From: Fictibacillus arsenicus
GTDB lineage: Bacteria; Bacillota; Bacilli; Bacillales; Fictibacillaceae
Assembly (NCBI RefSeq): GCF_001642935.1
Contig: NZ_CP016761.1
Location: 558,001-622,000, forward strand
Length of the DNA stretch: 64,000 nt
Direction of reading: 5' to 3'
The position numbers were made by a program, and so were the translations under genes. Of the stretch, positions 13,942-58,551 are shown one piece after another (the first letter of the stretch is position 1; every line of letters begins with the position of its first letter). The notes beneath the pieces were generated by a model. The model was given only the letters and a program-made list of their open reading frames with translations. It ran no database searches and was not told the DNA's origin.

Positions 13942-13957
13942 TTAAACGAGCGTTTAA
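13942..13957. repeat. TTAAAC-N4-GTTTAA palindrome, copy 1
   Basis: TTAAACGAGCGTTTAA, two bases after the spoVR stop and 11 before its terminator hairpin. Confidence 0.9.
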
Positions 13958-13968
13958 AAACTGATAGG

Positions 13969-13999
13969 AAAAAGCACGCTGGTGGCGTGCTTTTTATTT
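13969..13999 (+). terminator. Terminator of spoVR
   Basis: AAAAAGCACGC / GCGTGCTTTTT, loop TGGTG. The same GCACGC..GCGTGC stem recurs after several other genes here. Confidence 0.92.
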
Positions 14000-14164
14000 T
14001 GGGAACATAGAATATACAGCCTGAAAGAGTTAAGTTTTTTAAATCCACCGTATAAATGATGCTGTCATGTATGAAAGTGATCTGATACCCACCACTCTGC
14101 GTTCCGCATACTTACGGTTCCTTCAACGTGAGTGACATCAAACGGAAAATAACTTACAAACGAA

Positions 14165-14456
14165 ATGCCTTATTCGCCTCTTGTCATGTCAGCGGTCTTG
14201 CTACTGGCATTCTTCTTTTTCAACGAGTGGCGCGCAGATTAGCTCAATGGGTATTTATGAGGAAGTCCCAGGAGAGAGGTACATAGAAGAAGTATTAAAT
14301 ATCAAGTTTACGGGTACCAATCCATTTTACGATCAAAAATTAATTGATAAGACTCCTATGATGAACCGCTATGACATTATTTTATTGTATAAAACTGAAA
14401 CTATTGATGTAGATGAGATTAATCAGTCACCTTCTTATAAAATATCAACAAATTAG
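14165..14456 (+). pseudogene. Frameshifted remnant of an unknown small membrane-anchored protein
   Basis: From ATG 14165 the frame reads MPYSPLVMSAVLLLAFFFFN, a membrane segment, and stops at GCAGATTAG. One frame over, coding-like sequence continues (QISSMGIYEEVPGERYIEEV to YKISTN, stop 14456). A single indel near 14235 would join them. No ribosome site is evident and I do not recognise the family. The 14000-14160 stretch before it holds nothing I can support. Confidence 0.35.
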
Positions 14457-14493
14457 GGTTAGATTGTAATTAAAAGAAAGTAGGAACTGAAAT

Positions 14494-14872
14494 ATGAAAA
14501 ATAGCACAATTTTCCCGTTGGGACAAAAAGTTCATGCAAACTTTATTGGTGATGCATATTTACAAATGGTGTTTACTGATCCAACACCACTCAACACTTC
14601 AATGGGGAATGTAACATTTGCGCCTGGATCCCGCAATAACTGGCACTCTCATAAAGCTGGACAAGTTTTGTTAGTCACCGGGGGGAAGGATGGTATCAAG
14701 AAGAAGAAAAACCAGCGCAATTACTTAAAACAGGCGATGTAGTGAATATTCCGGCGAATGTAAAACATGGCATGGAGCGACAAAAAACAGCTGGTTTGTA
14801 CATTTAGCAATGACACCAGGAGAAACCGATTGGTTAGAGCCTGTCAATGATGAATGGTATAGCAAATTATAA
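14494..14872 (+). pseudogene. Cupin-domain protein, two frameshifts
   Basis: Starts with ATG 14494 and follows a small cupin through NNWHSHKAGQVLLVTGG, the first metal-binding motif. The frame then breaks in the GGGGGG run near 14682 and continues one frame over as WYQEEEKPAQLLKTGDVVNI. It breaks again near 14770 (AAACATGGCAT, where one T seems missing) before resuming as WHGATKNSWFVHLAMTPGET to the TAA at 14872. Intact relatives are ~130-residue (R)-mandelonitrile-lyase-like cupins. Two independent shifts argue for decay next to the IS element. Confidence 0.8.
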
Positions 14873-14954
14873 ATATAACACCATCTAATTGTAGATCGAT
14901 AGGAAAGGAAAAACAATAATGCATAAGCGCTGTCCATCGGAAGTATCTCTAAAT

Positions 14955-14970
14955 TTAAACAAGCGTTTAA
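14955..14970. repeat. TTAAAC-N4-GTTTAA palindrome, copy 2
   Basis: TTAAACAAGCGTTTAA, 14 bases before the terminator hairpin that carries the IS insertion. Confidence 0.9.
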
Positions 14971-14984
14971 AAACTAATCGAAAA

Positions 14985-15005
14985 AAGCACGCAGATAGCG
15001 TGCTT
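14985..15005 (+). repeat. Left target-site duplication: complete terminator hairpin
   Basis: 21 bases forming the stem AAGCACGC / GCGTGCTT with loop AGATA, identical to 16530-16550 on the other side of the IS. Confidence 0.88.
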
Positions 15006-15087
15006 CAGCTTGTAGACAAAGTCAGATGTCTACAAGCTTTTTTTATTGTAGAATTAAATTAGATAATGTTTGAGGGGAGAAATTTAC

Positions 15088-15663
15088 ATGTTATCTAAGC
15101 ATTCTACTGAAGGACGTCACCAAGTTACTCTAGCAGCTCTTGACGAGCTTGTACCTCAGGATCATTTGGTACGAAAAATTGATCAAGTCATGGATTTTGA
15201 CTTTATTTATGATGCCGTAAAACATACATATTCTTTGGATAATGGCAGACCGAGCGTGGACCCTGTTGTTTTAGTCAAAATGGTGCTCCTTCAATATTTA
15301 TTTGGTATTCGATCAATGCGCCAAACGATAAAAGAGATTGAAACGAATGTCGCTTATCGTTGGTTTTTAGGCTATGACTTCAGCGAGAAGATACCTCATT
15401 TTTCAACGTTCGGGAAGAATTACGCACGTCGTTTCCATGATAGTGATCTTTTCGAACAGATCTTCTATCGGATTCTACGTGAAGCTACGAATTATGGTCT
15501 GGTTGATCCCACTATTGCTTTTATCGATTCCACGCATGTGAAAGCCAATGCCAATAAGAAGAAGTTTGATAAGAAGATAGTACGTGTGGAAACGCGCAGC
15601 TATCAAAACAAACTTGAAGAAGAAATCAATATCGACCGTGAGGCACACGGAAAAAAGCACTAA
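15088..15663 (+). CDS. IS1182-family transposase, N-terminal part
   Basis: 191 residues from ATG 15088 (AGGGGAG seven bases upstream). Contains the DUF772-type N-terminal domain (DELVPQDHLVRKIDQV, SMRQTIKEIETNVAYRWFLGY) and the first catalytic Asp in FIDSTHVKANANKKK. It stops at 15661 directly after the heptamer AAAAAAG (15651-15657). A -1 slip there would fuse it to the downstream frame and give a full ~450-residue transposase. Confidence 0.88.
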   Translation: MLSKHSTEGRHQVTLAALDELVPQDHLVRKIDQVMDFDFIYDAVKHTYSLDNGRPSVDPVVLVKMVLLQYLFGIRSMRQTIKEIETNVAYRWFLGYDFSEKIPHFSTFGKNYARRFHDSDLFEQIFYRILREATNYGLVDPTIAFIDSTHVKANANKKKFDKKIVRVETRSYQNKLEEEINIDREAHGKKH

Positions 15664-16442
15664 CCCCTCAAACAAAAGAAGATACGAAAGAAGTTAAAGT
15701 GAGCACTACGGATCCGGAGAGTGGCTACTATGTAAAGGACGAACGGGAAAAGCTGTTTGCGTACTCTTTTCACACCGCCAGTGATTCAAGAGGTTTTATT
15801 CTTGGAAGTCTCGTCACCGGAGCCAATGTTCATGACAGTAGAATGCTCGAGCCACTTGTAAATCAGTTGTTAGAAAACGTAGGAAAACCGAACGCCTTAG
15901 CTGTAGATGCAGGATATAAAACACCGCCGATTGCCAAGTTTTTGATGGACCAGGAAATTCGCCCAGTAATGCCTTACACACGACCGAAAACCAAAGATGG
16001 ATACATGAAGAAGTACGAATATGTTTACGATGAACATTACGATCAATACATATGTCCGCAAGGCGAAACGTTACCCTATAGAACGACGACCCGCGAGGGC
16101 TATCGTCAATACGCTTCCAATCCTTTGAAGTGCAAACAGTGTCCTTTGCTTTCTCAATGTACGCAGAGTAAACAGCACATCAAGATGATCCACCGGCACA
16201 TCTGGGAGGAGTACTTGGAGGAAGCCGATCACCTTCGTCATACGGAGGAGAATAAAAAAATATATGCACAGCGAAAAGAAACGATTGAACGTGTCTTCGC
16301 TGATGCAAAAGAAAAGCATGGTATGCGTTGGACGAAGCTGAGAGGGCTTAAAAAAGTTTCCGCGCACGCGATGCTTACTTTCGCTGCCATGAATCTTAAA
16401 AAACTGGCAAACTGGACATGGCGAGGTCCATGTCCAGTGTAA
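15658..16442 (+). CDS. IS1182-family transposase, C-terminal part (-1 frame)
   Basis: Continues the transposase in the -1 frame (ALTPQTKEDTKEVKVSTTDP...). It carries the second catalytic Asp in LAVDAGYKTPP, a Cys-rich zinc-type motif (YICPQG, CKQCPLLSQC) and the catalytic Glu in RKETIERVFADAKEKHGMRW. It has no good start of its own (the GTG at 15699 lacks a ribosome site), so it is probably made only as a frameshift fusion, or the element is a one-base mutant. Confidence 0.82.
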
Positions 16443-16481
16443 GTTAAGCTAGAATTCCTTTGGAAAACCTAGAAAAAATGA

Positions 16482-16519
16482 ACAAACCCCATCTCAAATC
16501 AATTTGAGATGGGGTTTGT
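16482..16519. terminator. Hairpin at the right end of the IS
   Basis: Perfect 17-bp stem around loop TCAA overlapping the right inverted repeat; no T-run, so it may be a transposase recognition or shielding structure. Confidence 0.7.
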
Positions 16520-16529
16520 CTACGTTCTG

Positions 16530-16550
16530 AAGCACGCAGATAGCGTGCTT
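16530..16550 (+). repeat. Right target-site duplication: second copy of the terminator hairpin
   Basis: Identical to 14985-15005. It keeps the original T-run (GTGCTTTTTG), so it remains a working terminator for transcripts leaving the IS. Confidence 0.88.
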
Positions 16551-16684
16551 TTTGTTATTCCTTGGTCTAACAATATCGTATTAAATATAGCTAGTTATAA
16601 ATTCAGATATCATATTGTTTTCATGATATTGTTCTTTTAATTATAACTTGTGTCATATACATTTTCAGATAAGGAGGAATGTGT

Positions 16685-17632
16685 ATGCCCAAAAAGGTTC
16701 TTCTTTTTACAGATTTGGGAATAGATGATGCTTTTGCTCTTATTTATGCCTTTTTCCGTAAAGACGTAAAAATATTGGGGATAGTTGCTGATTATGGGAA
16801 CGTATCGAGAACAAATGCAATTAGGAATATTAATTATATAAAGTACATTATGGGACAAGAAAAAATTCCAGTATTTCTCGGTGCATCTGTTCCACTAACT
16901 GGCATTTCGGTTCAGTTTTTTCCTGAAGTACATGGAGAAGCGGGCTTAGGACCAATCATTCCTCCAGATATTCCTTACCCAGTATTCCCTATTAATGATA
17001 TTTATCAGATAATAGATGAAGATATAGAGGACCTCACAATCATCAACCTTGGAAGATTATCTTCGTTAGCAACTACATTTATCCTTAATTTAGAAAAGAT
17101 GAAAAAAGTAAAGGAGTATATTTGCATGGGAGGAGCGTTCTTCTATCCAGGGAATGTAACAGCCGTAGCAGAAGCCAATTTTTACTCTGACCCCTATGCA
17201 GCAAATCTAGTCTTGCTCCATGCTAGAAATTTGACGATCATTCCATTAAACATTACACAAAACGCACTCGTTACTCCCGAAATGGTTCAAACGATTGATA
17301 GATTCCATCAGAATACTCAGGATCCCGCAGGACTCATGATCAAACCAATGTTGGACTACTATTATAATTTTTACTCTAAATCAAACCCAGGTATTAAAGG
17401 AAGTCCTATGCATGATTTTATGACGATATGGTTTATGTTGCATCCAGAATTTGTGAACGTTTCGAGAGTACCAATAAAAGTTATACCCGACAGAGGGGAA
17501 GGTTTTGGTCAAAGCATTGCTGACTTTCGTTTTACAACAAACCCAGAGTATAGAACCCATAGCGTCGCTTTTTCTTTTAATTATGAAGCCTTTAAACAAA
17601 GCATTATGGATACCCTCTTAACTAGGAGGTGA
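16685..17632 (+). CDS. Nucleoside hydrolase family protein
   Basis: 315 residues of the inosine/uridine-preferring nucleoside hydrolase fold. Asp10, Asp14 and Asp15 (TDLGIDDAFAL) match the calcium-binding cluster and MHDFMTIW near residue 243 supplies the late Asp. The usual first Asp of the DxDxxxDD motif is Phe8, so activity may be altered. ATG 16685 is seven bases after AAGGAGG; an ATG at 16679 is too close. Would release ribose from purine or pyrimidine nucleosides. Confidence 0.83.
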   Translation: MPKKVLLFTDLGIDDAFALIYAFFRKDVKILGIVADYGNVSRTNAIRNINYIKYIMGQEKIPVFLGASVPLTGISVQFFPEVHGEAGLGPIIPPDIPYPVFPINDIYQIIDEDIEDLTIINLGRLSSLATTFILNLEKMKKVKEYICMGGAFFYPGNVTAVAEANFYSDPYAANLVLLHARNLTIIPLNITQNALVTPEMVQTIDRFHQNTQDPAGLMIKPMLDYYYNFYSKSNPGIKGSPMHDFMTIWFMLHPEFVNVSRVPIKVIPDRGEGFGQSIADFRFTTNPEYRTHSVAFSFNYEAFKQSIMDTLLTRR

Positions 17633-17689
17633 GTGTTATTTTCGATTAAAACATAATTTATGTGCATTATTACCTGAAGAACAATAATA

Positions 17690-17761
17690 AATAAACCCTT
17701 TAAAAGTGTATACGGCACAACAGCATTTGAAGAAATGTCACAAATAATTGATGGGGGATAA
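17690..17761 (+). pseudogene. Short coding-like tail of an unknown gene
   Basis: A frame reading INKPFKSVYGTTAFEEMSQI and ending at TAA 17759-17761 looks like the C-terminus of a lost gene. A TTAAAC palindrome follows after three bases, as after intact genes elsewhere. No start or ribosome site. Low confidence. Confidence 0.25.
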
Positions 17762-17764
17762 AAA

Positions 17765-17780
17765 TTAAACAAATGTTTAA
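17765..17780. repeat. TTAAAC-N4-GTTTAA palindrome, copy 3
   Basis: TTAAACAAATGTTTAA, 13 bases before a GCACGCC..GCGTGC terminator. Confidence 0.9.
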
Positions 17781-17792
17781 TTTTTGCATAAG

Positions 17793-17817
17793 AAAAAGCA
17801 CGCCCTGGCGTGCTTTT
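17793..17817. terminator. Terminator between nucleoside hydrolase and lysR
   Basis: AAAAGCACGC / GCGTGCTTTT, short loop; A- and T-runs on both sides suggest action on both converging transcripts. Confidence 0.88.
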
Positions 17818-17839
17818 GTTGTCTTTGTTGATATTTTCG

Positions 17840-18775
17840 TTAGCTTTGTTGGGCTGATTCCATTTCTTGAATTCGACATGTCACTCCTTTTTTAGTTTCA
17901 ATAATCGAATTTAAAACAAGTTCTACAAAAGCTTCTACTGCTGGAGATAACCACTTTTTCTTTTTAATCAACATATGAGAATAAATGGGTTCGAATTTTT
18001 CAGAATGAGTTAATACTTTTAACTTTCCATTCTCAACTTCATTTTTAACTGTAATGTAAGGCAACGCAGCAAATCCAAGTCCACTCATTACAATCTGTTT
18101 GATTGCTTCTATACTCCATAGCTCCATAGTTTGAAAGTTATTGTGCATGCCATGCTTTAAAAGGTATCTTTCAAACATTGTTCTATAACTGCAGCCTTCT
18201 TCATTTGTTATGAAAAAATGATTGAATTTACTTTTTTTGTAATTGTCAAAATGGTTTGGACCGTCATTACTACTTACAATGACAATTTTCTCTTCTGCTA
18301 AAGAATAATGAATGCATTTTTCTAGTTCGATTTCAGGATAGACCATGAATGCAACATCTACCCGTCCACTCATTAAGTCAATTTGGTTTTGCCCACATGT
18401 CCCGTTGGTTAATATTAATTTGACATTAGGATATTTTAAGGAATATTCCTTTATTATTTGACCAAGCCTAGAGATTGTTAAAGACTCTGGTGCAGCCACT
18501 TTTATAACTCCATTAACTTCGTTGGTGCTTCGCATATTCTTGATCTGTTCGTGAGTAGAAAGTAAATCTTCCGCTAAAGATATTAACTCTCTACCTATAT
18601 GAGTAAGCTGTAAATTTCTTTTTATATAAGTAAAAAGCTCTCCACCGATCTCCTCTTCAAGCGCTTGAATATGTGAAGTGATAGTAGATTGAGTATAGCC
18701 TAACTTCAAGGCCGCTCCTGTATAAGTTCCTATTTCTACAATAGTCAGAAACGTTTTCAGATGTCTAATTTCCAT
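17840..18775 (-). CDS. LysR-family regulator, divergent from a LysE exporter
   Basis: 311 residues. The start is placed at MEIRHLKTFL (18775), which follows AAGGAGAGACG; upstream frame codons do not belong to the family. The N-terminal winged helix (GAALKLGYTQSTITSHIQAL) is typical; the effector domain spans ~90-295. Transcribed away from the LysE-type exporter 134 bases off, so it probably activates that gene in response to the exported compound. Confidence 0.9.
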   Translation of the reverse strand: MEIRHLKTFLTIVEIGTYTGAALKLGYTQSTITSHIQALEEEIGGELFTYIKRNLQLTHIGRELISLAEDLLSTHEQIKNMRSTNEVNGVIKVAAPESLTISRLGQIIKEYSLKYPNVKLILTNGTCGQNQIDLMSGRVDVAFMVYPEIELEKCIHYSLAEEKIVIVSSNDGPNHFDNYKKSKFNHFFITNEEGCSYRTMFERYLLKHGMHNNFQTMELWSIEAIKQIVMSGLGFAALPYITVKNEVENGKLKVLTHSEKFEPIYSHMLIKKKKWLSPAVEAFVELVLNSIIETKKGVTCRIQEMESAQQS

Positions 18776-18909
18776 ATCGTCTCTCCTTAAGGTGTAAGTT
18801 GTATCGAAAAAAATGATAATGGATTTTTCAATTTCAATTTTATTTATACTTATGGTCATCATACAATAAAGGCTATTCGATAGTAAATTAATTAAATGAA
18901 GGTGAGTCT

Positions 18910-19488
18910 ATGAGTATAGCAGCGTTTTTTTCGTATGTAATTATTACATCCATTACACCTGGACCAAGTAACATCTTGATAATGAATGAGGCGAGGAGGT
19001 TTGGACTTAAAGGTTCATGGAGGTTTATTAGCGGCATCTTGGCAGGATTTGCCGTACTTGGGATTTTGAGTGGAGTATTTACAGCTAGTCTTTATAATGT
19101 AATTCCCTTTTTAGAGCCATATTTGAAATTTGCTGGTGCAGTATATCTACTCTACATGGCTTGGCAGGTGGGTCTATCAAATAGTGCCAAGGAGAATTTA
19201 AGAGATGTGCAATCTTCCTTTTTATCAGGTTTTATCTTCCAAATTATAAATGTTAAAAGCATTTTGTTCTTTTTAACATTGATGAGTGCTTTTATTTTAC
19301 CGTTTAATGATTCTCTTAAAAACGTAATTATCTATTTAGCATTGGCCATTTTTCTAGGATGGTTAGCATTGCTTTTGTGGACAGGGTTTGGATCAATGTT
19401 TAAAAAAATTTTTGCCAAACATGAAAAGTCATTTCGGTTAGTAATGTGTTCGTTATTAATTTACTCTGCGGTTACGATTTTTCTGTGA
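18910..19488 (+). CDS. LysE/RhtB-family amino-acid exporter
   Basis: 192-residue membrane protein, about six segments, with the family signature ITPGPSNILIMNEARRFGLKG near the N-terminus. Exports an amino acid or related metabolite; substrate unknown. Paired divergently with a LysR gene, as in lysE/lysG systems. AAGGTGAG before the ATG. Followed by 157 bases holding a degenerate TTAAACAAATGTATAA at 19538 and no gene I can support. Confidence 0.88.
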   Translation: MSIAAFFSYVIITSITPGPSNILIMNEARRFGLKGSWRFISGILAGFAVLGILSGVFTASLYNVIPFLEPYLKFAGAVYLLYMAWQVGLSNSAKENLRDVQSSFLSGFIFQIINVKSILFFLTLMSAFILPFNDSLKNVIIYLALAIFLGWLALLLWTGFGSMFKKIFAKHEKSFRLVMCSLLIYSAVTIFL

Positions 19489-19645
19489 TAATTAATGAGA
19501 TGTTAGAGGTGAATATAAACTAGTAGTTTTATCAAATTAAACAAATGTATAAAAAGAGTTAGGGAAAAGGATGATGCTTGCTTTCAGCTGTAAACATTTA
19601 CTATGCCTACAGCTGAGAATCTCTCGAACCCTAAGGGAATTGAGC

Positions 19646-20536
19646 TTAAATAACACAGGAGTCATGATTAATAAATCGTATAAAGGCATCTGCCGCAGGA
19701 CTGGGGAAGGTCTCTTTATGCCGGACAATATGAAAGTTTCTAAGAACCTTTAAGTCTTTTCCTTCTAATACTTGAATCTCTCCAAACTTTGTTTCCATTT
19801 GAATGGTTCTTTTAGAAACAAAACTAATGTATTCTCCGGTTAAAACTGCTTGTTTGATCGCTTCAGTTGAGTCTAGTTCAATATATTTTTGAAGAGAAAC
19901 CTCGTGTTGTCTAAGGTGTTTTTCAATAGTTTTACGTGTGTTTGAATCTTGCCCTCTCATTACGAACTTCTCATTCATTATGTCTTCAAGTCTTAAATTT
20001 TTCTGCTTGGTAAGGGGGTGATTCTTCCTTGCGATCAAGACGATCTCATCTTGCAGCAGAATCTCGTTGATTACCGATGTAATTACAGGTACTTCAGGGA
20101 TAATGGCTATATCAAGTAAATTGTTTTTAACTTTAAATAGAATTTCATCCGTTGGCTGGATTTCTAATTTAATGCTTACACCTGGATATTTTTTCATAAA
20201 GTTGATGACAATCGGAGCCATCAAGTAGTTCCCGATTGTAGTACTAGCTCCAACCACGATTGATCCACTTTCTAGATTTTTCATTCCTTCCATAACAGAC
20301 TCCGTTTTGCCTACTAAAGAGAGAATTTTTTCTGCCATTTCGAACAAAACCAATCCAGAGTCGGTCAGTTTAATCTCCCTTCCTACACGATGGAAAAGGG
20401 TTAATCCAAACTTCTGTTCCATTGATTCTATTTGTCTTGAAACAGCTGGTTGACTGATGGAGAGTTCATTTGCAGCTCGTGTAAAACTTTTTTGCTTTGC
20501 AACATGATAAAACGTTTTAAGCTGATAAAAATCCAT
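19646..20536 (-). CDS. LysR-family regulator (CysL/YwfK-like)
   Basis: 296 residues, full length, with the LysR helix-turn-helix (RAANELSISQPAVSRQIESM) and a PBP-like effector domain. Overall it resembles the CysL/CbbR branch. It faces away from a small gene plus MFS gene across a 120-base region with divergent promoters and probably regulates that pair. The effector is unknown. Confidence 0.88.
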   Translation of the reverse strand: MDFYQLKTFYHVAKQKSFTRAANELSISQPAVSRQIESMEQKFGLTLFHRVGREIKLTDSGLVLFEMAEKILSLVGKTESVMEGMKNLESGSIVVGASTTIGNYLMAPIVINFMKKYPGVSIKLEIQPTDEILFKVKNNLLDIAIIPEVPVITSVINEILLQDEIVLIARKNHPLTKQKNLRLEDIMNEKFVMRGQDSNTRKTIEKHLRQHEVSLQKYIELDSTEAIKQAVLTGEYISFVSKRTIQMETKFGEIQVLEGKDLKVLRNFHIVRHKETFPSPAADAFIRFINHDSCVI

Positions 20537-20656
20537 GGATCATCCTCTCTTTCTTCTATAACGTAACCGTATAGAGGGTATTACAAATATGCATTTTTAT
20601 TATATTTCAATTAAGAATAGAATGGAAGAAAGGTAACTTATTCGGGAGAGGATCTT

Positions 20657-20869
20657 ATGTCTTGGTTTAAAAGAAACCCAATATATTTAGTCCATTTAAC
20701 GATAAGTTCTGGTGAGTCATTTAAGGTACAACAATTATTAAGTAAATGGGGAATTCCCTTTAAACTTGAAATATCTTCATCCTGCATCCTTCTAAAAGTA
20801 AAAGAAGAGCATATAGCACTTGCGAAAGACGTTGTTAAGATTGCTTGCATTAAGACAGGGGATGTATAA
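20657..20869 (+). CDS. Small conserved-looking protein before an MFS gene
   Basis: 70 residues, ATG after GGGAGAGGAT, ending two bases before the MFS start, so the two are co-transcribed. Predicted as one alpha/beta fold (YLVHLTISSGESFKVQQLLS then SSCILLKVKEEHIALAKDVV), reminiscent of the ferredoxin-like DUF2007 signal-transducing proteins, but I do not recognise it with certainty. Possibly a ligand-binding partner of the transporter. Confidence 0.65.
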   Translation: MSWFKRNPIYLVHLTISSGESFKVQQLLSKWGIPFKLEISSSCILLKVKEEHIALAKDVVKIACIKTGDV

Positions 20870-20871
20870 GC

Positions 20872-22164
20872 ATGCTAAGTGACAAAATAGAAGTATTTGA
20901 TCAGAGAAACAGCCTTTCATCTGAAAAATTAAAACAGATATATAAGAGAACATTATTAGTTGTAAGTATTTCACAAATCTTTGGTGGGGCAGGACTCGCT
21001 GCTGGAATTACTGTTGGTGCACTTCTTGCACAGCAAATGATGGGGACAGATGCATTTTCAGGTTTGCCTGCTGCCCTTTTCACAATCGGCTCAGCAGCAG
21101 CTGCGTTTATAGTGGGGCGTCTTTCTCAACGGTATGGACGCCGAACAGGGTTAACAATTGGATTTTTGGCAGGGGGTCTGGGAGCATTAGGTGTTGTTAT
21201 AGCTGCTATAACAAACAGCATTTTGCTTTTATTTGTTTCTTTATTTATATACGGTGCGGGTACAGCTACAAATTTACAAGCTCGTTATGCAGGTACTGAT
21301 TTAGCACATGAAAACCAGCGTGCGACAGCGATTAGTATTATTTTAGTTTCAACAACAGTTGGTGCTTTTGCAGGTCCTAATTTAGTTGGTGTGATGGGGG
21401 ATTTTGCTATATCAATTGGTGTTCCAGCTCTTGCAGGACCTTTCATCTTATCGGGAACGGCATTTATAATAGCTGGACTTATTATTTTCCTTATGCTTCG
21501 TCCAGATCCTTTCTTGTTCGTAAAAATGATGGAAGCTAGTTTAAGCGAACAAGTCTTTGAAGGATCTTTAACTAAAAGTAATCAATACAACAATAAAAGA
21601 GGCATTGCAATCGGTGCGGCTGTCATGATTCTTACACAGCTTGTGATGATTGCAATAATGACGATGACTCCAGTTCATATGAAACATCACGGACACGGAC
21701 TTAGCGAAATAGGTCTAGTTATTGGTGTTCATATCGGTTCGATGTATCTGCCTTCACTCGTTACGGGTGTCCTAGTTGATAAAATTGGCCGTACTGCGAT
21801 GGTTATTGCTTCAGGAATCACATTGCTTCTCGCGGGTGTAATAGCCGCAATCGCACCGGGTGACTCTATGTTTTTTCTAATAATTGCTCTATCTTTACTA
21901 GGACTAGGCTGGAATTTCGGATTGATTAGCGGTACTACTATATTAGTGGATTCTACACAGTCTTCTACCCGAGCTAAAACTCAAGGCACGATTGATGTAT
22001 TGATAGCATTAGCGGGAGCTACTGGTGGAGCTATGTCTGGAATGATTGTTGCTTACTCTAGTTATGCAGCATTATCATTTGCTGGGGGAGTATTGGCACT
22101 CTTGCTGATTCCCGTTGTGGTTAATTATCGCGGGACTCTAAGACAGAAAATTAATCAAAGGTGA
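20872..22164 (+). CDS. MFS transporter
   Basis: 430 residues with 12 predicted segments, the motif A loop GRLSQRYGRRTGLTIG after segment 2 and a related loop LVDKIGRTAMVIA in the second half. The N-terminal ~25 residues are cytosolic. Co-transcribed with the 70-residue protein and opposite a LysR gene; substrate unknown. Followed by a TTAAAC palindrome and terminator. Confidence 0.87.
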   Translation: MLSDKIEVFDQRNSLSSEKLKQIYKRTLLVVSISQIFGGAGLAAGITVGALLAQQMMGTDAFSGLPAALFTIGSAAAAFIVGRLSQRYGRRTGLTIGFLAGGLGALGVVIAAITNSILLLFVSLFIYGAGTATNLQARYAGTDLAHENQRATAISIILVSTTVGAFAGPNLVGVMGDFAISIGVPALAGPFILSGTAFIIAGLIIFLMLRPDPFLFVKMMEASLSEQVFEGSLTKSNQYNNKRGIAIGAAVMILTQLVMIAIMTMTPVHMKHHGHGLSEIGLVIGVHIGSMYLPSLVTGVLVDKIGRTAMVIASGITLLLAGVIAAIAPGDSMFFLIIALSLLGLGWNFGLISGTTILVDSTQSSTRAKTQGTIDVLIALAGATGGAMSGMIVAYSSYAALSFAGGVLALLLIPVVVNYRGTLRQKINQR

Positions 22165-22172
22165 CTATGAAC

Positions 22173-22188
22173 TTAAACAAGTGTTTAA
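22173..22188. repeat. TTAAAC-N4-GTTTAA palindrome, copy 4
   Basis: TTAAACAAGTGTTTAA, eight bases after the MFS stop and 13 before the terminator stem. Confidence 0.9.
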
Positions 22189-22201
22189 ATTTGCCTACAA
22201 G

Positions 22202-22226
22202 AAGCACGCTACTGGCGTGCTTTTTG
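22202..22226 (+). terminator. Terminator of the MFS operon
   Basis: AAGCACGC / GCGTGCTT stem followed by TTTTT. Confidence 0.9.
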
Positions 22227-24067: not shown

Positions 24068-24073
24068 CGCTTA

Positions 24074-29186: not shown

Positions 29187-29202
29187 TTAAACATTTGTTT
29201 AA
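29187..29202. repeat. TTAAAC-N4-GTTTAA palindrome, copy 5
   Basis: TTAAACATTTGTTTAA starting on the base after the rsbR-like stop codon. Confidence 0.92.
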
Positions 29203-42822: not shown

Positions 42823-42838
42823 TTAAACAAACGTTTAA
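42823..42838. repeat. TTAAAC-N4-GTTTAA palindrome, copy 6
   Basis: TTAAACAAACGTTTAA, beginning on the base after the dinB-like stop. Confidence 0.92.
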
Positions 42839-50992: not shown

Positions 50993-51019
50993 GCAGCTCT
51001 TTCCTCCTTTTTTGTTTGT

Positions 51020-52510: not shown

Positions 52511-52621
52511 CTGCCTTATCCTTAATAATGTTTGATAAGCAAGGGAAATCTATACATTATTTACCATGAAAGATGAGCGCTGATTCCTTGACACTTAATA
52601 GAGTTTTTTCAATAATATAGG

Positions 52622-52731
52622 AAGAATAGCTTTCTAGGGTTCCGCAGTGACTGTTCGCTGGTCTGGTCCGAGAGAAGGCGCACAATGGATACATTGTGTA
52701 CACGGAGGGATAAAAGCCTGGGAGGATATAG
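52622..52731 (+). ncRNA. Guanidine-I (ykkC) riboswitch
   Basis: Contains the class signature elements TCTAGGGTTCCG, GGTCTGGTCCGAGAG, a GGCGCACA..TGTG stem and ACACGGAGGGATAAAAGCC in order. An expression-platform hairpin and a guanidinium exporter follow, exactly the expected target. Turns on export when guanidinium binds. Confidence 0.93.
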
Positions 52732-52757
52732 TTATATATCTTTCTGGGCTTTATTTA
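52713..52757 (+). terminator. Riboswitch-controlled terminator
   Basis: AAAGCC..GGATATA / TATATC..GGGCTTT long stem with GU pairs and a T-rich tail; its left arm overlaps the 3' part of the aptamer. Confidence 0.85.
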
Positions 52758-52775
52758 TTGTAGGAGGTCAATATA

Positions 52776-53099
52776 ATGGCATGGGTGTACTTGTTCATTG
52801 CAGGTATCTTTGAAATCGTTTGGGCGATAGGGCTTAAATATACGAATGGATTCACTAGATTGTGGCCGTCGATTGTAACCGTAATCGGAATGATCATCAG
52901 TTTTTATTTTTTGTCACAAGCTACAAAAGTTCTGCCGATCGGGACGGCTTATACGATTTGGACGGGGATAGGCGCAGCTGGAGCGGTTATTTTAGGAATT
53001 GTCCTATTCGGTGAGCCGAAGACCGTGCTTCGTTTTGTATTTTTAGCATTTGTAATTACGGGAATTATTGGTTTGAAGGTTACTGCGGGTAGTCAATAA
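52776..53099 (+). CDS. gdx: Guanidinium exporter of the SMR family (Gdx/SugE)
   Basis: 107 residues, four membrane segments, the normal SMR length. The key Glu is in AGIFEIVWAIGLKYTNGF, and WPSIVTVIGMIISFYFLS and GTAYTIWTGIGAAGAVILG follow the Gdx pattern. Works as an antiparallel dimer exchanging guanidinium for protons. AGGAGGTC before the ATG; controlled by the riboswitch upstream. Only one SMR gene is present, fitting homodimeric Gdx. Confidence 0.95.
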   Translation: MAWVYLFIAGIFEIVWAIGLKYTNGFTRLWPSIVTVIGMIISFYFLSQATKVLPIGTAYTIWTGIGAAGAVILGIVLFGEPKTVLRFVFLAFVITGIIGLKVTAGSQ

Positions 53100-53104
53100 A
53101 AGAT

Positions 53105-53331
53105 GGATTTTTTCATAAACTTTGCTGTTTTTGGAGGTTGTTGATTTCCGTTCCAGGTGCTCGCTTTCCGCGGGGCAGGCGGTCTTCAAGTAAAAGCTAC
53201 CGATGTGAGCTTCCTCGTCGCATGCCTAGCGAGAAGCTTCTCAGGTGGTAGGCACGCACCTTCCCCTTCAATCAACAGTTCAATGAAGAACTTCAAACCT
53301 CTCTATAGCAACATTCATTTAGAAAATAGCC
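53105..53331 (+). repeat. Dispersed MITE-like repeat, copy R4
   Basis: Orientation as R1. Its middle section (TCAAGTAAAAGCTACCGATG to GGTAGGCACGCACCTTCC) is shared in reverse with R5, defining a subfamily distinct from R1/R2. Fills the gap between gdx and the bactofilin terminator. Confidence 0.83.
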
Positions 53332-53344
53332 AAAGAAAAAGAAA

Positions 53345-53396
53345 AAGCTGCCTTAAACAGGTGTTTAATGTACCTGTTCTTAGGCAGCATTTGTGG
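53345..53396 (-). terminator. Terminator of the bactofilin gene, enclosing a TTAAAC palindrome
   Basis: Outer stem GCTGCC / GGCAGC with, on the minus strand, TTTTTCTTTTTC after it; the loop contains palindrome copy 7. Confidence 0.8.
53353..53368. repeat. TTAAAC-N4-GTTTAA palindrome, copy 7
   Basis: TTAAACAGGTGTTTAA, 31 bases beyond the bactofilin stop and inside its terminator loop. Confidence 0.9.
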
Positions 53397-53398
53397 TT

Positions 53399-54184
53399 TT
53401 AGATTTTCTCTTGTGTTCCTACCTTAGCGTTTTCGTCCAGCTCAAGACTTTGTTTATATTCGATGCGATCAATGACACATCCAGGGCCGATCTCTATCGT
53501 GTTACCTCTAACTACTTTTGCATGTGTGTATTCAAGGGACACATGATCACCTTCGATCACTTCTGCAGTTAGCTGATCTGTTTGCTGACCGATAAAGAAT
53601 TTAATGAGCTTTTTGAAACCCGAAGAATCAATGTTCCTTTTTACGTTAATATTTTCACCGCCGATTTCTTTTGCTTCACAAAGGCGCAGGAGCTCAATGT
53701 CGATGTTTCCGGCATTCAGGAGACCATTGATTTTAAAATTGCCACGAGCATTAAAAGATTCTGCCTCGCAGTCACCACCAATTTTTACTTGTCCCTTAAC
53801 ATCTACCTCATCACCAGAAACATTGCCTTTAATTGAAGCAGATCCTCTTACGATGATTTCTTTTCCTTTCAGGTCGCCTTTTATATTAGATGAGCCTTGT
53901 ATTTTCACTTTGCTGCAAGTTAAATTTCCGTCAATATCAGTGCTTCCATTGATGGTCATTTCTTCAGCTTCCATGTTTCCTTCAATATGGGAAGATCCAT
54001 TGACCTTGGCAGTACCCGTTTTGATATTTCCTTCTATATGTGCACTGCCGTTGCATTTGAAAACTTCGCACTGAATATCACTGTTTATATGTGCTGACCC
54101 ATTAACTTTCACTTGATCATATTCACCGCCAGCAGCTGTTCCTGAACCTGAAATGCTTATGTTTCTTTGTTTTGTCTTTTCCAT
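53399..54184 (-). CDS. Bactofilin-like polymer-forming protein (YhbE/YhbF type)
   Basis: 261 residues. The centre is a beta-helix of about ten short repeats with the pattern NGSxHIxGNI/VNGSAHINxDI, typical of bactofilins; the C-terminal ~90 residues are a distinct non-repeat domain. Likely forms cytoskeletal filaments. It follows a yhbD-type gene by 19 bases. B. subtilis has two adjacent bactofilins (yhbE, yhbF) after yhbD, whereas only one is present here. Confidence 0.9.
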   Translation of the reverse strand: MEKTKQRNISISGSGTAAGGEYDQVKVNGSAHINSDIQCEVFKCNGSAHIEGNIKTGTAKVNGSSHIEGNMEAEEMTINGSTDIDGNLTCSKVKIQGSSNIKGDLKGKEIIVRGSASIKGNVSGDEVDVKGQVKIGGDCEAESFNARGNFKINGLLNAGNIDIELLRLCEAKEIGGENINVKRNIDSSGFKKLIKFFIGQQTDQLTAEVIEGDHVSLEYTHAKVVRGNTIEIGPGCVIDRIEYKQSLELDENAKVGTQEKI

Positions 54185-54203
54185 AACTATTCCTCCTCAA
54201 CGT

Positions 54204-54824
54204 TTACGAAATCTTTAATTTTAACTCTTCAATGCATTGATTCAGTTTGTAATGGGCAATAATTTTTGTTTGAGATTCTACGAACAGCTTAGCTGGTTCA
54301 GGTGTGAGGATAAAGAAAGATACACCCATTTTTCGAATAAAAATAAGTTCGCTTTCCTTGCCTTTTATTTCATTCGAATGTTGCTGAAGGATGTGAAGAA
54401 GTTCCATTCCTTCTGAGCGGTTCATTTCTCCAGTTTGAAGCAGGGTATCTAGTAAGTATAAGGTTAGTAATTGATCAAACGAGAAAGTAGAAGTGGTGCC
54501 ATTGTGGTTGTTATACATTTCTAAAGCAGTATAAGAAACAATGTTACGTTTTGTTAATTCCTCTGCTGATAAGGAAGTAATAGTTGGGGATGGGGAGAAC
54601 ATATCAGCAAGTTCATCTAGCGACAAATCATCTTTTAAATTCTTAATTTTTTCAACTCGCTGCAGGATATCTTCTTTTGGAAAGAATGTCTCTTGGCCTG
54701 TAAAGGTTGATTTGCGTATAAACCAGTTTTCAGGAATCAGATTTTTTCGTTTCCAGCGATATAACTGACCATACGAAATATTTGCAGCTTCTAGAAGATC
54801 TTTCTTTGAGATTAAATTTTCCAT
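54204..54824 (-). CDS. yhbD: YhbD-family protein (DUF4004, MerR-like N-terminus)
   Basis: 206 residues from the ATG after GAAGGAGGTTGAG. N-terminal MerR-like helix-turn-helix (ISKKDLLEAANISYGQLYRW), then a helical domain. Probably regulates or assists the bactofilin encoded directly downstream. No effector site recognised. Confidence 0.85.
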   Translation of the reverse strand: MENLISKKDLLEAANISYGQLYRWKRKNLIPENWFIRKSTFTGQETFFPKEDILQRVEKIKNLKDDLSLDELADMFSPSPTITSLSAEELTKRNIVSYTALEMYNNHNGTTSTFSFDQLLTLYLLDTLLQTGEMNRSEGMELLHILQQHSNEIKGKESELIFIRKMGVSFFILTPEPAKLFVESQTKIIAHYKLNQCIEELKLKIS

Positions 54825-54954
54825 GCTCAACCTCCTTCTATAACTAATGTAACATAACACTGTTACGTTACGCAAATATTTTTTCCATTTTTTTAAAGGA
54901 AATGATCTAATGGTTGTGAATATCAATAAGTATGGGAGTTACGGGGGTGGATGT

Positions 54955-55686
54955 ATGAAGGAATGGTTTAGTGAAGGGGAGTCAGGGTTTATTATGTTCG
55001 GTGCTGAACATATTATCAGCCTGCTAATAATCGTATTTATCGTAATATTCATGTACCTCTTTCGCTCTCGTATAAAAGAAATGCATTCAATAAAATACAT
55101 ATTCTTGTTGAGTCTTGCTTTATCCGAAGTGAGCTACCAGTGCTGGGCATTATATAATGGGATTTGGACAGTGAAGTTGTATCTGCCGCTTCAGCTGTGC
55201 AGTTTAAATATCCTGTTATGCATGCTCTTGCTGTTAACAGAGAATAAGAAGCTTTTTGCTTTTGTGTATCTGTTTGGCTTTACAGGTGCATTACAAGGGT
55301 TGCTTACTCCAGAACTCTATCAGCAGCCATGGCACTTTCGTTTTATCCAATATTTTTTCGCACATGGTCTCATCGTTTGGACTGCTATGTATTATGCGAT
55401 CGTAAAGTCTTTTAAAATAACGTGGGGAAGATTTTTTAAGTCGTTCCTATGGCTCAATTTCTATGCCGTAAGTGTCTACGGCATTAATATTTTGCTGAAT
55501 ACGAATTATATGTTTCTAATGAGCAAGCCTGGAAAAGCTTCGCTGATGGACTTCCTTGGTCCGTATCCATGGTACATTCTTGGTTTAGAACTGATTGCGT
55601 TTTTCATGTGTTTACTTGTATTGATTCCTGTACTGGATAAATCCTCTGAACCAATTAATAAAGACCGCTCGCCGATTGGTGCGTAG
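54955..55686 (+). CDS. ywaF: YwaF/TIGR02206 family membrane protein
   Basis: 243 residues, about seven membrane segments. Signature MFGAEHIISL near the N-terminus and LPLQLCSLNILLCMLLLL, YFFAHGLIVWTAMYY in the core. ATG 54955 follows GGGGGTGGATG; upstream codons in frame overlap the yhbD promoter. Function unknown. Monocistronic, terminator overlapping the stop. Confidence 0.87.
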   Translation: MKEWFSEGESGFIMFGAEHIISLLIIVFIVIFMYLFRSRIKEMHSIKYIFLLSLALSEVSYQCWALYNGIWTVKLYLPLQLCSLNILLCMLLLLTENKKLFAFVYLFGFTGALQGLLTPELYQQPWHFRFIQYFFAHGLIVWTAMYYAIVKSFKITWGRFFKSFLWLNFYAVSVYGINILLNTNYMFLMSKPGKASLMDFLGPYPWYILGLELIAFFMCLLVLIPVLDKSSEPINKDRSPIGA

Positions 55687-55697
55687 CGGTCTTTTTG
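55660..55697 (+). terminator. Terminator overlapping the end of ywaF
   Basis: AAAGACCGCT (within the last codons) pairs with AGCGGTCTTT after the stop, followed by T. Confidence 0.85.
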
Positions 55698-55774
55698 TAT
55701 GTTTTGTGACATCGATTGGAATGAAAAGAATAATTGGTATTTATTAGTATAATAGAAGTGAGGAGGGATATTTT

Positions 55775-56844
55775 ATGAACCAAGCTGTTATTAAGCCAAT
55801 TAAATGGGTGCCGTTTCTCGCTCTATGTTTATTAGTAATTGGGAGCAATATGATTTTGTACATGACACCATTCTTTCAGCCGGTGCCAAATCTAGTAGTA
55901 GCAGGCTCCATGTTTGATTTCCTTCTAGTTATCCCGATTCTTGTATACTACTTTATTATTCGTAAAAGATATTCTTGGAAACTCACTGTCCTTACAGCCA
56001 TCGCAAGCTATGGGCTGGCGACTTTAATTATTCCAGATTCATTATTAGTAATGTAGCCATGATCCCAAAAGCTTTACTCCTGTTAGAAGCAGGATTCGTT
56101 TCAATTGAGCTGTATTTGTTAATCATAGTTATAAGGAAGTTTCCTAAAGTAAAAGCATCTTACAGAAAGCTCCGGGTTGAACTTCCATTTCTGATTAAAA
56201 TTAAACAAGCGTTTTACTCACACTTTTCCGACAGCCGTATGCTCGATGCTGTTGTCAGTGAGATTACGATGCTTTACTATGCTTTGTTCTCCTGGAGAAA
56301 ACCAGCTTTGAAGTCAGGTGAGGTTTTTACTTTTCATAAAAAAACAAGCTTTGTCGCTCTTAATCTGATGCTGATTCATGCACTCATTATTGAATCAGTT
56401 GGACTTCACTATTTTTTTAGCAAGATCGACCACACGCTTTCTCTAGTACTGCTCTTCATCAATGTCTATTCAGTGCTTTTCCTTTTTGGCCAGATGCAGG
56501 CAGTTAAGAAAATCCCTTTAATCACAACGGAAGATTCTATCATTATGAATATCGGCTTCTTTAAGGGAATGTCACTTCCTTATACAGCCATAAAGCAAAT
56601 AAGAAGATATGAAGGACTGGATACGATATCTGCTTCAGAAAAGAAATACACTTTTGAAGCATTAGTGAGTGATTTTATTCCGGAAAAGCCATCAATCGAA
56701 ATTCTTTTAAAGGAACCTGTAGTGACAGACCTCATTTATGGATTTAAAAAGAAAGTTACTAGAGTGGTAATAAAAGTGGATGAACCTTCATCTTTAATGA
56801 ACATAATAGAAAATAGAATGACTTCTGAAAATGAAACGGATTGA
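55775..56844 (+). pseudogene. Frameshifted multispan membrane protein gene
   Basis: The first frame starts at ATG 55775 after GAGGAGGG. It encodes 93 residues with three membrane segments and stops at 56054. The second frame carries on without overlap loss (SNVAMIPKALLLLEAGFVSIE... to 56844), adding more membrane segments and a C-terminal soluble domain. One extra A in TTATTAGTAATG near 56042 would restore a ~355-residue protein. Resembles Bacillus membrane proteins often labelled beta-carotene monooxygenase without evidence. Could be a true mutation or a base-call error. Confidence 0.72.
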
Positions 56845-56946
56845 AATTTTTTAACAAATGTTCGATTTCACCTTGTTAAATGGAAATGCTATTGTTACTA
56901 TTTCAGAAGGTTATAGAAAAATTCCCTCGACAGGTGAAAATAGACT

Positions 56947-58317
56947 ATGTTTAAAAATAATTCTGCAACTACACAACAAAAAAAGAATTTCTTAACTTCT
57001 GTTCAGCTTATCGTAATCTTTTATTTATTGTCCGTTATCGCGGCTACGATTCTATTAAGTTTGCCAGTCGGACATAAAGAGGGAGTAAAGCTTTCTTTCA
57101 TTGATACATTATTTACAGCAGTAAGTGCTGTGAGTGTTACAGGGCTCACTTCAGTAAATATTTCTGAAACATTCAATCATACTGGTGTTGTTTTACTTGC
57201 TATTGTTGTTCAGATTGGCGGTATAGGTGTAATGACACTGGGAACTGCTATTTGGCTGCTAATCGGTAAAAGAATCGGTATGAGAGAGCGGCAGCTTATT
57301 ATGACAGATCAAAACCAGTCGACTTTGGCGGGTCTCGTTCAGCTTATGAAACAAATTTTAACCTTGATCATCGGGATAGAAGTTGTGGGGACTGTGCTTT
57401 TCTTTATCCTGTTCCAGCCATATTACGACACTGAACTGGAGGTACTGTACCACGCTTTCTTCGCCTCAGTTACGGCGACAACAAATGCCGGATTCGATAT
57501 TACGGGAAGCTCTCTGATGCCGTTTCGTCACGATTACCTCGTTCAGATCGTGACTATGTTTTTGATTACGTCTGGAGCGATCGGTTTTCCTGTATTGGTA
57601 GAGATCAATAATTTTATAAAAGAAAGAAAGTATTTGGAGCGCTATACATTTACTCTTTTTACAAAAGTAACAACTATTACGTTTGCATTATTAGTAGTAA
57701 CGGGAGCATTAGGAATCTACCTGTTGGAGATGAATGCTTTTTTCGAAGGTAAATCGTGGCATGAAACATTCTTTTATTCGATGTTTCAGTCTGTTACAAC
57801 CCGAAGCGGCGGATTATCTACAATGGACGTCTCAGAGTTTACCGTTCCAACTTTGCTCTTTTTGGGCGTAATGATGTTTATTGGAGCCTCTCCGAGCAGT
57901 GTCGGCGGCGGTATTCGGACAACAACATTTGCAGTAGCTGCTTTGGCGATTTTCTTTTATGCAAAAGGACGAAATACGATCAAAATCTTTAATCGGGAAA
58001 TCTACCCGGAAGATATACAAAAATCATTTATCGTAATAATCGTTGCCATGGTGCTGTGTACAACATCAACCATAATTATTTCAATTACAGACCCAATGCC
58101 GATCGAGAAAATCTTTTTTGAAGTCTGTTCCGCATTTGGAACTACAGGACTTTCAACTGGAATCACAGGTACATTAAGTTCAACCGGTAAAGTGATCTTG
58201 ATGATTTTGATGTTTATCGGACGAATCGGCGTTCTTTCTTTTCTTTTTATTATTCGAGGAAAAGTAGCGACTGAACACATTCATTATCCAAAAGAAAAAT
58301 TAATAATTGGCCAATAA
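56947..58317 (+). CDS. ktrB: TrkH/KtrB-family potassium/sodium channel subunit
   Basis: 456 residues with four M1-P-M2 repeats. Pore-loop Gly positions are seen in AVSVTGLTSVN, TATTNAGFDITG, SVTTRSGGLST and SAFGTTGLSTGI. Imports K+ together with a cytosolic RCK subunit (KtrA/KtrC), which is not next to it, as for B. subtilis KtrD. The ktrB/ktrD choice cannot be settled from sequence memory. ATG after CAGGTGAAAA. Confidence 0.88.
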   Translation: MFKNNSATTQQKKNFLTSVQLIVIFYLLSVIAATILLSLPVGHKEGVKLSFIDTLFTAVSAVSVTGLTSVNISETFNHTGVVLLAIVVQIGGIGVMTLGTAIWLLIGKRIGMRERQLIMTDQNQSTLAGLVQLMKQILTLIIGIEVVGTVLFFILFQPYYDTELEVLYHAFFASVTATTNAGFDITGSSLMPFRHDYLVQIVTMFLITSGAIGFPVLVEINNFIKERKYLERYTFTLFTKVTTITFALLVVTGALGIYLLEMNAFFEGKSWHETFFYSMFQSVTTRSGGLSTMDVSEFTVPTLLFLGVMMFIGASPSSVGGGIRTTTFAVAALAIFFYAKGRNTIKIFNREIYPEDIQKSFIVIIVAMVLCTTSTIIISITDPMPIEKIFFEVCSAFGTTGLSTGITGTLSSTGKVILMILMFIGRIGVLSFLFIIRGKVATEHIHYPKEKLIIGQ

Positions 58318-58329
58318 AAGCAATCACGT

Positions 58330-58358
58330 TTGAATTCAGCCTAATGTTTACTTATAAT
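58330..58358 (+). promoter_or_regulatory. Promoter of the riboflavin operon
   Basis: TTGAAT 58330-58335, 17 bases, TATAAT 58353-58358; transcription would start just before the FMN aptamer. Confidence 0.78.
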
Positions 58359-58376
58359 GTACATAAGTAAATAGTG

Positions 58377-58526
58377 TCCTTCGGGGTTTGGGTGAAAGTC
58401 CCGACCGGCGGTGATGAGGCTGTTAAATTGTCTCTTAGTCCGTGACCCGGTTTTGTTATTAAGCAAAAACGGTGGATTCGGTGTAAGTCCGAAGCCGACA
58501 GTATAGTCTGGATGGGAGAAGGAACG
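58377..58526 (+). ncRNA. FMN riboswitch (RFN element)
   Basis: Shows the conserved elements TTCGGGGTTTGGGTGAAAGTC, CCGACCGGCGGT, AGTCCGTGACCC, GGTGGATTCGGTGTAAGTC and GACAGTATAGTCTGGATGGG in order. It represses the ribE-ribBA-ribH operon when FMN is plentiful, through the terminator at 58596. Confidence 0.96.
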
Positions 58527-58535
58527 TGAATGCTT

Positions 58536-58551
58536 TTAAACACTTGTTTAA
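58536..58551. repeat. TTAAAC-N4-GTTTAA palindrome, copy 8
   Basis: TTAAACACTTGTTTAA in the FMN riboswitch expression platform, ten bases after the aptamer. The only copy not near a gene's 3' end. Confidence 0.9.

Follow-up and report, generated by a model that had tools for sequence, protein, structure and literature searches.

In Bacillus subtilis, published work describes RefZ as a TetR-family protein produced early in sporulation that contributes to septum placement on the chromosome (chromosome capture) and whose binding motifs (RBMs) comprise five sites, one near oriC and two per arm, in the layout given in PMC6657595 and PMC11154705. The forespore of this species traps 25-30% of the chromosome, and the coordination of the septum with the trapped part in spore formers is called largely a mystery in PMC6657595. 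Noc, another B. subtilis protein, has fewer sites than expected in ter and close to the region of trapping (PMC4726725), and the TetR-family protein SlmA has 24-52 sites (SBSs) and acts on FtsZ (PMC6657595 and PMC4726725).

The Fictibacillus chromosome studied here (4,055,461 bp) carries 66 exact copies of the 16-bp palindrome TTAAAC-N4-GTTTAA, a number obtained from the genome-wide count proposed by a first-pass annotation of this DNA and far above chance, with 0 copies of the reversed-pattern control. Among the papers listed by literature searches, none dealt with how many RBMs Fictibacillus has, and those listed for RefZ together with the motif letters were unrelated. We consider it likely, at a probability of roughly 80%, that the palindrome, in the form TTAAAC-RNNY-GTTTAA, is the RBM, present in greatly expanded number and arranged in belts that mark the place of the septum in Fictibacillus.

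The palindrome in the 64-kb window and its gene context

The window, meaning the whole 64-kb stretch of DNA that was analysed, contains nine exact copies of the palindrome, against 0.02 expected from dinucleotide-shuffled sequence. Eight of them had been listed in the first-pass annotation, all at their correct coordinates. The ninth (TTAAACATGTGTTTAA, 11869-11884), absent from that list, is located inside a 412-aa ORF (11196-12434); like the other RBM-like palindromes described here, it has no assigned strand. The copy at 13942-13957, with a stop codon 2 bases to its 5' side and a GCACGC hairpin to its 3' side, belongs to a duplicated 76-bp segment whose second copy carries the palindrome at 14955-14970, also followed by a GCACGC hairpin (by eye); direct comparison of the pair gives 64/76 identical positions. 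The palindromes at 22173-22188 (stop codon 8 bases 5'), 29187-29202 and 42823-42838 (both abutting a stop codon, the latter with the Bacillus-type spacer AAAC) are each followed by a terminator, as is that at 17765-17780, which lies in a convergent gene gap. Another convergent gap holds the copy at 53353-53368, and the one at 58536-58551 is intergenic between codirectional genes. Two near-copies with one mismatch each, TTAAACAAATGTATAA at 19537-19552 and TTAAACAAGCGTTTTA at 56201-56216, had been noticed previously, with their positions misplaced to 19538 and 56205.

Seen from the window, the palindrome could be taken for a signal of gene ends. Four of the nine copies (13942, 22173, 29187 and 42823) start 0-8 bases past a stop codon, and thus within 10 bases of it, as had been reported; the six described as preceding a hairpin (13942, 14955, 17765, 22173, 29187 and 42823) do so when GCACGC/GCATGC-type hairpins are judged by eye, and a stricter test accepts a terminator for five of the nine. 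The generalization that nearly every copy has a stop codon on one side and a terminator on the other breaks down beyond the window, where both features occur on one strand at 2/57 sites: 32 of these 57 lie in coding sequence, 3 within 10 bases of a stop codon, and 6 adjoin a terminator. Chromosome-wide, stop codon and terminator share a strand at 6/66 sites, 33/66 are within genes (from gene calls with a coding fraction of 0.80), and the same terminator test finds an adjoining terminator at 11 (5 of them in the window) and none at 55. The intergenic sites occupy codirectional (17), convergent (8) and divergent (8) gaps, all three classes being enriched relative to random points (12.2%, 3.4% and 4.6%, respectively).

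Intergenic copies do favour terminators (11/33, versus 75/1500 random intergenic points), also outside the window (6/25, p = 0.0015), a weaker preference that fits a binding site kept off promoters. Nonetheless, because half of the sites are in genes, all intergenic classes are enriched and placement follows distance from oriC (see below), we reject the terminator/roadblock reading; that the palindrome is a transcription roadblock, a terminator accessory or an RNA 3'-end signal is hardly credible, and of the options raised by the first-pass annotation, the roadblock, the aid to termination, the RNA signal and the mobile terminator find no support. As to a mobile terminator cassette in particular, a shared 76-bp segment was seen in the 13942/14955 pair, the one pair compared. 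The eight sites in divergent gaps would suit operators of a regulon controlled by RefZ or another protein, but convergent gaps hold as many, half of the sites are in coding sequence and chromosome position rules their placement, making a regulon very improbable.

Mirror-image belts about oriC

The distance from oriC is a strong placement rule for the palindrome. Of the 66 sites, 64 fall in two belts, one spanning +339 to +901 kb relative to oriC and the other -400 to -946 kb; the belts are mirror images of each other, with 30 sites on the right arm (30-80 degrees; median distance 673.4 kb) and 34 on the left (36-84 degrees; 672.4 kb). The narrowest interval of oriC distance that includes 64/66 sites spans 607 kb, whereas the smallest obtained in 20,000 simulations of 66 uniformly placed points is 1,532 kb. 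Both sites off the belts are atypical: one, at -47 kb and with spacer CGGG, is alone in the origin region of 339 + 400 kb, where there is no typical copy, and the other is the single site in the 2.2 Mb of ter-side DNA between the belts. One-mismatch copies are distributed likewise, with 25 in 591 kb of belt DNA (3 of which differ in the spacer only) versus 1 in 417 kb of origin-side DNA. The spacer of the exact copies is degenerate (RNNY), 8/66 being of the AAAC type. The belts extend to 80-84 degrees and so overshoot the trapped portion of the B. subtilis chromosome (25-30%).

Other Fictibacillus genomes agree with this arrangement: the 2.35 Mb between the belts of G040 is free of sites, and in G017 a 360-kb portion where the belt is expected carries 24 sites, versus 0 for 360 kb on the ter side. 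The adherence of 64/66 sites to the oriC-distance rule, together with the near-empty ter-side regions of the present genome and G040, also argues against a role at RNA 3' ends.

Reading the sites as RBMs, RefZ dimers would occupy ~64 of them in two belts mirrored about oriC; with the chromosomes stretched from pole to pole and oriC at the poles, the belts would surround the future polar septum, bound RefZ would locally inhibit or reposition FtsZ, and the septum would then form over a defined point of the chromosome, so that a reproducible part is trapped in the forespore. Both the binding of RefZ and its effect on FtsZ are here extrapolated to Fictibacillus from B. subtilis, while the number and layout of the sites are direct observations. 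The expanded RBM array is probably a belt-like, sporulation-specific nucleoid-occlusion zone that marks the septum cut on the chromosome. It is also conceivable, if more tentatively, that RefZ, which elsewhere reads five landmarks, has in Fictibacillus become the basis of a nucleoid-occlusion field that is distributed and specific to sporulation, in which tens of complexes on two half-megabase belts would generate a graded no-division zone and the cut point would be the average of many sites.

RefZ and its probable motif in related genomes

The palindrome is most likely the RBM, as suggested by its layout and its co-occurrence with RefZ. The fixed-spacer motif is present in 44/44 genomes of genus Bacillus, with 2-5 copies each (control 0), and in the 12 genomes whose main contig starts at dnaA, none of these sites (45/45) is more than 53 degrees from oriC; a misfit is Bacillus genome G443 (dnaA at 3.598 Mb), 4/5 sites of which are 0.63-1.38 Mb away. 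In G482, with a RefZ that matches 6mj1, the solved B. subtilis RefZ, at 100% identity across 191 residues, a scan of 400 kb chosen around two known exact matches and oriC yields five copies that are exact or differ at a single base (54,580; 342,414; 367,293; 3,731,571; 3,769,501), one near oriC and two per arm. These positions match the published RBM layout and point to RBM identity indirectly, by layout rather than by published letters or coordinates. Relaxing the RNNY pattern by one mismatch brings in appreciable background, with 11-15 matches in four Bacillus genomes versus 4-9 for the reversed control. Across the class, at least three sites occur in 32/81 RefZ-positive versus 1/315 RefZ-negative genomes (Fisher 7e-24, kinship ignored; the present genome and G372 left out); the exact RNNY motif is absent from 17/83 RefZ-positive genomes and occurs one to three times in 48/315 RefZ-negative ones.

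The RefZ of the present genome, which scores 246 bits against an NCBIfam cut-off of 180 (TetR family), has B. subtilis RefZ 6mj1 as its best solved-structure match. Two suggestions of the first-pass annotation, that the dyad looks like a TetR-type operator and may be a nucleoid-protein site, fit RefZ as a TetR-family nucleoid binder; its remaining options do not. The gene beside refZ is hisJ-like by translation, presumably the same neighbour as in B. subtilis. Nine further, weaker matches to the RefZ model, all below cut-off, would suit ownership of the motif in Fictibacillus by some DNA-binding protein other than RefZ (a second TetR regulator, a nucleoid or an SMC-loading factor), as would the recognition helix of RefZ, which has His at residue 44 where B. 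subtilis has Tyr; however, the class-wide link between motif and RefZ and the published RBM layout of the Bacillus copies make such an owner quite unlikely. Noc and parS were rejected as candidates: the 14-bp Noc consensus, ATTTCCCGGGAAAT, is unrelated to the palindrome, and 1.02 Mb of the chromosome contains no exact match to it (eight with at most 2 mismatches); parS-like sites (at most 2 mismatches) in the same DNA are within about 220 kb of oriC, with none in the belt DNA examined. His44 is found in 22/22 RefZ loci seen, from 25 genomes of the two expanded genera, and also in Halalkalibacter and near kin, which carry 0-3 sites; it therefore does not explain site number, and a change of the recognition helix is rejected as the cause of the expansion.

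Exact RNNY sites in the four genera of the family number 0-1, 2, 13-24 and 24-65, the last range being that of Fictibacillus. Such wide variation, and a turnover by which 6/24 aligned G040 sites are not intact in the present genome, could be expected if the extra copies were a passive by-product, accumulating without added function in belts where RefZ tolerates any site. We regard this as unlikely: in the same alignment the motif arms are 275/288 identical (95%) versus 4740/6258 (76%) for the flanks, counted as a sign of selection on the sites, the reversed control has no copies and the belts are mirror-symmetric. With 66 marks in symmetric belts and fewer or almost none in sister genera, the family amounts to a natural experiment in RefZ-site dosage; the boundary of capture may be readable from sequence alone, and it can now be tested whether more sites make the captured region wider, sharper or differently placed. 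If the reading as a nucleoid-occlusion field is true, the series of 0-1, 2, 13-24 and 24-65 sites would show such a system evolving step by step.

Comparison with RefZ-RBM, Noc and SlmA

The Fictibacillus sites share with the RefZ-RBM system of B. subtilis the palindrome arms (TTAAAC-N4-GTTTRA), symmetric siting on both chromosome arms (64/66 in mirror belts) and an orthologous RefZ above the curated cut-off. They differ in number, with 66 exact copies rather than the published layout of five; in the spacer, which is mostly AAAC in the B. subtilis system and degenerate RNNY in Fictibacillus; in occupying broad zones, each belt measuring about 0.55 Mb, where B. subtilis has paired points; in lacking a typical counterpart of the origin-proximal RBM; and in the His at RefZ position 44.

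The Noc system of B. subtilis (~70 sites) is similar in consisting of dozens of short, unevenly distributed palindromes and inhibits division over part of the nucleoid, as the Fictibacillus belts may; Noc is, however, ParB-like and has a different consensus, and its sites would be nearly complementary to the Fictibacillus belts. SlmA of E. coli, like RefZ, is of the TetR family and targets FtsZ, and its palindromic sites too number in the dozens, but these are chromosome-wide except in ter and form no belt, and SlmA belongs to Gammaproteobacteria and has no tie to sporulation. The Fictibacillus palindromes do not follow the Noc/SlmA distribution, which covers most of the chromosome except ter.

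In summary, RefZ marks are known as five points in B. subtilis, and what is new in Fictibacillus is a probable RBM array of 66 copies, 64 of them in two belts.

Chromosomal position of the palindrome

Nine copies of the 16-bp palindrome TTAAAC-N4-GTTTAA are present in the window, which spans 558,001-622,000 of the chromosome, against 0.02 expected from shuffles; the eight exact copies listed by the first-pass annotation all lie where it had placed them, and a ninth was added at 11869. The genome-wide count that it had suggested yields 66 copies in the 4,055,461-bp chromosome, far from the reversed control pattern, which has none in the same sequence. Since the spacer reads R-N-N-Y in 61/66 sites, the common form is TTAAAC-RNNY-GTTTAA (RNNY site); beyond the 16 bp, the flanks have merely a weak A/T preference.

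Position on the chromosome is the rule for these sites. With oriC placed at 4,039,700, immediately before dnaA (frame start 4,040,034), and all 66 sites mapped, the right arm carries 30 between +339 and +901 kb and the left arm 34 between −400 and −946 kb, in two mirror-image belts with median distances from oriC of 673.4 and 672.4 kb; a KS test detects no difference between the distances on the right and left arms (p = 0.21). All 61 RNNY sites are inside the belts, and both outliers, at 2,190,859 (TGCT) and 3,992,889 (CGGG), carry atypical spacers. The narrowest interval of absolute distance from oriC that holds 64/66 sites spans 607 kb, whereas in 20,000 simulated uniform placements of 66 points it never fell below 1,532 kb. 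One-mismatch copies obey the same rule, with 10 + 15 in the 591 kb of belt DNA examined (3 differing in the spacer alone) and 1 in the 417 kb of origin-side DNA examined, a ratio biased upward because belt DNA was partly picked around sites (site-by-site picking did not apply to the window or to the contiguous region 3,425,000-3,785,000).

Gene context and hairpins

The first-pass annotation had described the palindrome as lying almost always between a stop codon and a terminator. By a purpose-made codon-usage gene caller (coding fraction 0.80 of the DNA examined), half of the sites (33/66) fall inside genes, compared to 78% of random points, an enrichment in intergenic DNA (binomial 4e-7); the intergenic half comprises 17 codirectional, 8 convergent and 8 divergent locations. 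Of these 33 sites, 7 have a stop no more than 10 bases away, 11 adjoin a terminator-like hairpin and 6 combine both, versus 121, 75 and 18, respectively, of 1500 random intergenic points. The 25 intergenic sites beyond the window keep the preference for terminators (6/25, p = 0.0015) and weakly favour the stop-terminator combination (2/25, p = 0.04); stops are not favoured (3/25, p = 0.33).

Five similar GCACGC...GCGTGC hairpins, four of which adjoin a palindrome, are clustered at window positions 13,969-22,202 (~8.2 kb), and the remaining 961 kb of DNA examined has no match to this pattern. Window positions 13917-13992 and 14930-15005 correspond to a duplicated 76-bp segment (64/76 identical) that includes a gene end, the palindrome and a hairpin. 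In light of the genome-wide figures, the stop-to-terminator arrangement is a local exaggeration, helped by the hairpin cluster and the duplication, of a modest preference of which the terminator component persists. A terminator element as the identity of the palindrome is rejected on genome-wide context and the oriC-distance rule; the array is a real, well-ordered feature of a different nature.

RefZ and the motif across genomes

The F. arsenicus gene for RefZ, a TetR-family sporulation protein, is located at 2,819,001-2,819,582 on the minus strand; its score of 246 bits exceeds the cut-off of 180, which nine further matches to the RefZ model fail to reach. The protein is 97% identical to RefZ of Fictibacillus arsenicus Con a/3 and Fictibacillus sp. 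BK138, which places the genome in this genus, and among solved structures it matches B. subtilis RefZ (YttP; 6mj1) best. Within the class, 83/398 genomes have RefZ over the cut-off, as does B. subtilis alone among 14 named control genomes. Leaving aside our own genome and G372, and with kinship among genomes uncorrected, at least one RNNY site is found in 64/81 RefZ-positive versus 48/315 RefZ-negative genomes, and at least three in 32/81 versus 1/315. Exact copies are absent from 17/83 RefZ-positive genomes, where the motif has thus drifted or is weaker. G372, which is RefZ-positive and belongs to another family, has a tandem array (L251, G372:C5:146500-149000, ~814-1332) of 9 exact copies with C/T-rich spacers in 55-56 bp steps, one step of 112 spanning a variant copy; this is a natural cluster of sites resembling the RefZ-binding motif (RBM).

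In the GTDB family set (34 genomes, four genera), RNNY sites number 24-65 per genome in our genus (n = 18), 13-24 in a second (n = 7), 2 in a third (n = 1) and 0-1 in the fourth (n = 8). RefZ is present in 33/34; single-contig G032, of the fourth genus, has neither a RefZ match at E <= 1e-30 nor an RNNY site. Residue 44 of RefZ, compared across L036 and the family loci L186-L214, is His at all 22 loci available from the two expanded genera and Tyr at the 8 from the two few-site genera; His also occurs at this position in Halalkalibacter and its close relatives, which have 0-3 sites. B. subtilis has Tyr there, and its Y44A variant causes no cell filamentation in the account cited (PMC6657595).

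F. phosphorivorans DE0352 (G040) has 40 sites, at C10:351,659-860,558 and C10:3,209,022-3,456,156 with none between, and two on C13; its dnaA is at C10:9,480-10,832. Compared with the stretches of our chromosome examined, 24 aligned, 8 had no match and 8 fell outside the alignment; 18/24 are intact, a figure biased upward by the richness of the compared DNA in our own sites, and identity is 275/288 in the motif arms versus 4740/6258 in the flanks, a contrast read as selection on the motif. Against stretches of G017, 6 of our sites aligned and 4 are intact (arms 64/72, flanks 1109/1417). G017 itself has 24 sites in a 360-kb expected belt, placed by reference to its refZ and not to a mapped oriC, and 0 in 360 kb of ter-side DNA; the opening 44 kb of this genome yielded neither a site nor dnaA.

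Comparison with the Bacillus RefZ-RBM system

The form TYAAACAAAYGTTTRA occurs in 2-5 copies per genome in 44/44 genomes of the genus of G292, whose RefZ is 94% identical to 6mj1, versus 0 copies of the control pattern. The first 4 kb of one contig was examined in 16 of these genomes; in the 12 that have dnaA there, none of the 45 such sites is more than 53 degrees from oriC, and most fall at 28-42 degrees on the right or 38-53 degrees on the left; G381 has one further one-mismatch site. G458, G486, G453 and G443, lacking dnaA in the first 4 kb, were left out of this set; motif positions on G443:C1 do not fit its separately located dnaA, and this contig looks rearranged or misassembled relative to G068. 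Single near-copies are no proof of a site, since allowing one mismatch in four Bacillus genomes gives 11-15 RNNY-type matches versus 4-9 for the reversed control.

G482, with a RefZ equal to 6mj1 over 191 residues, has copies within one mismatch of TTAAACAAACGTTTRA at 54,580 near oriC, at 342,414 and 367,293, and at 3,731,571 and 3,769,501, within 400 kb examined (from 20 kb before oriC to 60 kb after it, 140 kb on each arm enclosing two exact hits, and the 40 kb that contains refZ); the remainder was scanned for the fixed-spacer pattern without mismatch, which yielded the two exact hits. As described in the cited passages, the RBMs of B. subtilis are five, one near oriC and two per arm, lie at the limit of the trapped region and keep their positions throughout Bacillus (PMC6657595, PMC11154705). 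In our view, the agreement of the five G482 positions with this layout identifies the motif as, most likely, the RBM.

In B. subtilis, the same literature describes RefZ as made early in sporulation and binding RBMs, which it requires for precise capture, and as disrupting Z-ring assembly when artificially expressed (PMC6657595). Fictibacillus RefZ would similarly bind the palindrome sites, and the belts may act jointly as a sporulation-specific nucleoid-occlusion zone round the septum. By published account, Noc sites of B. subtilis are underrepresented close to the trapping region (PMC4726725), a gap that such belts would fill.

The analysis shows how many sites there are, how symmetrically they lie and how wide the belts are, and that the motif is conserved and co-occurs with RefZ. 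The array most likely works like, and derives from, the RefZ-RBM system. By description, however, that system has five sites; with 66, the Fictibacillus array is therefore not an ordinary member of it.
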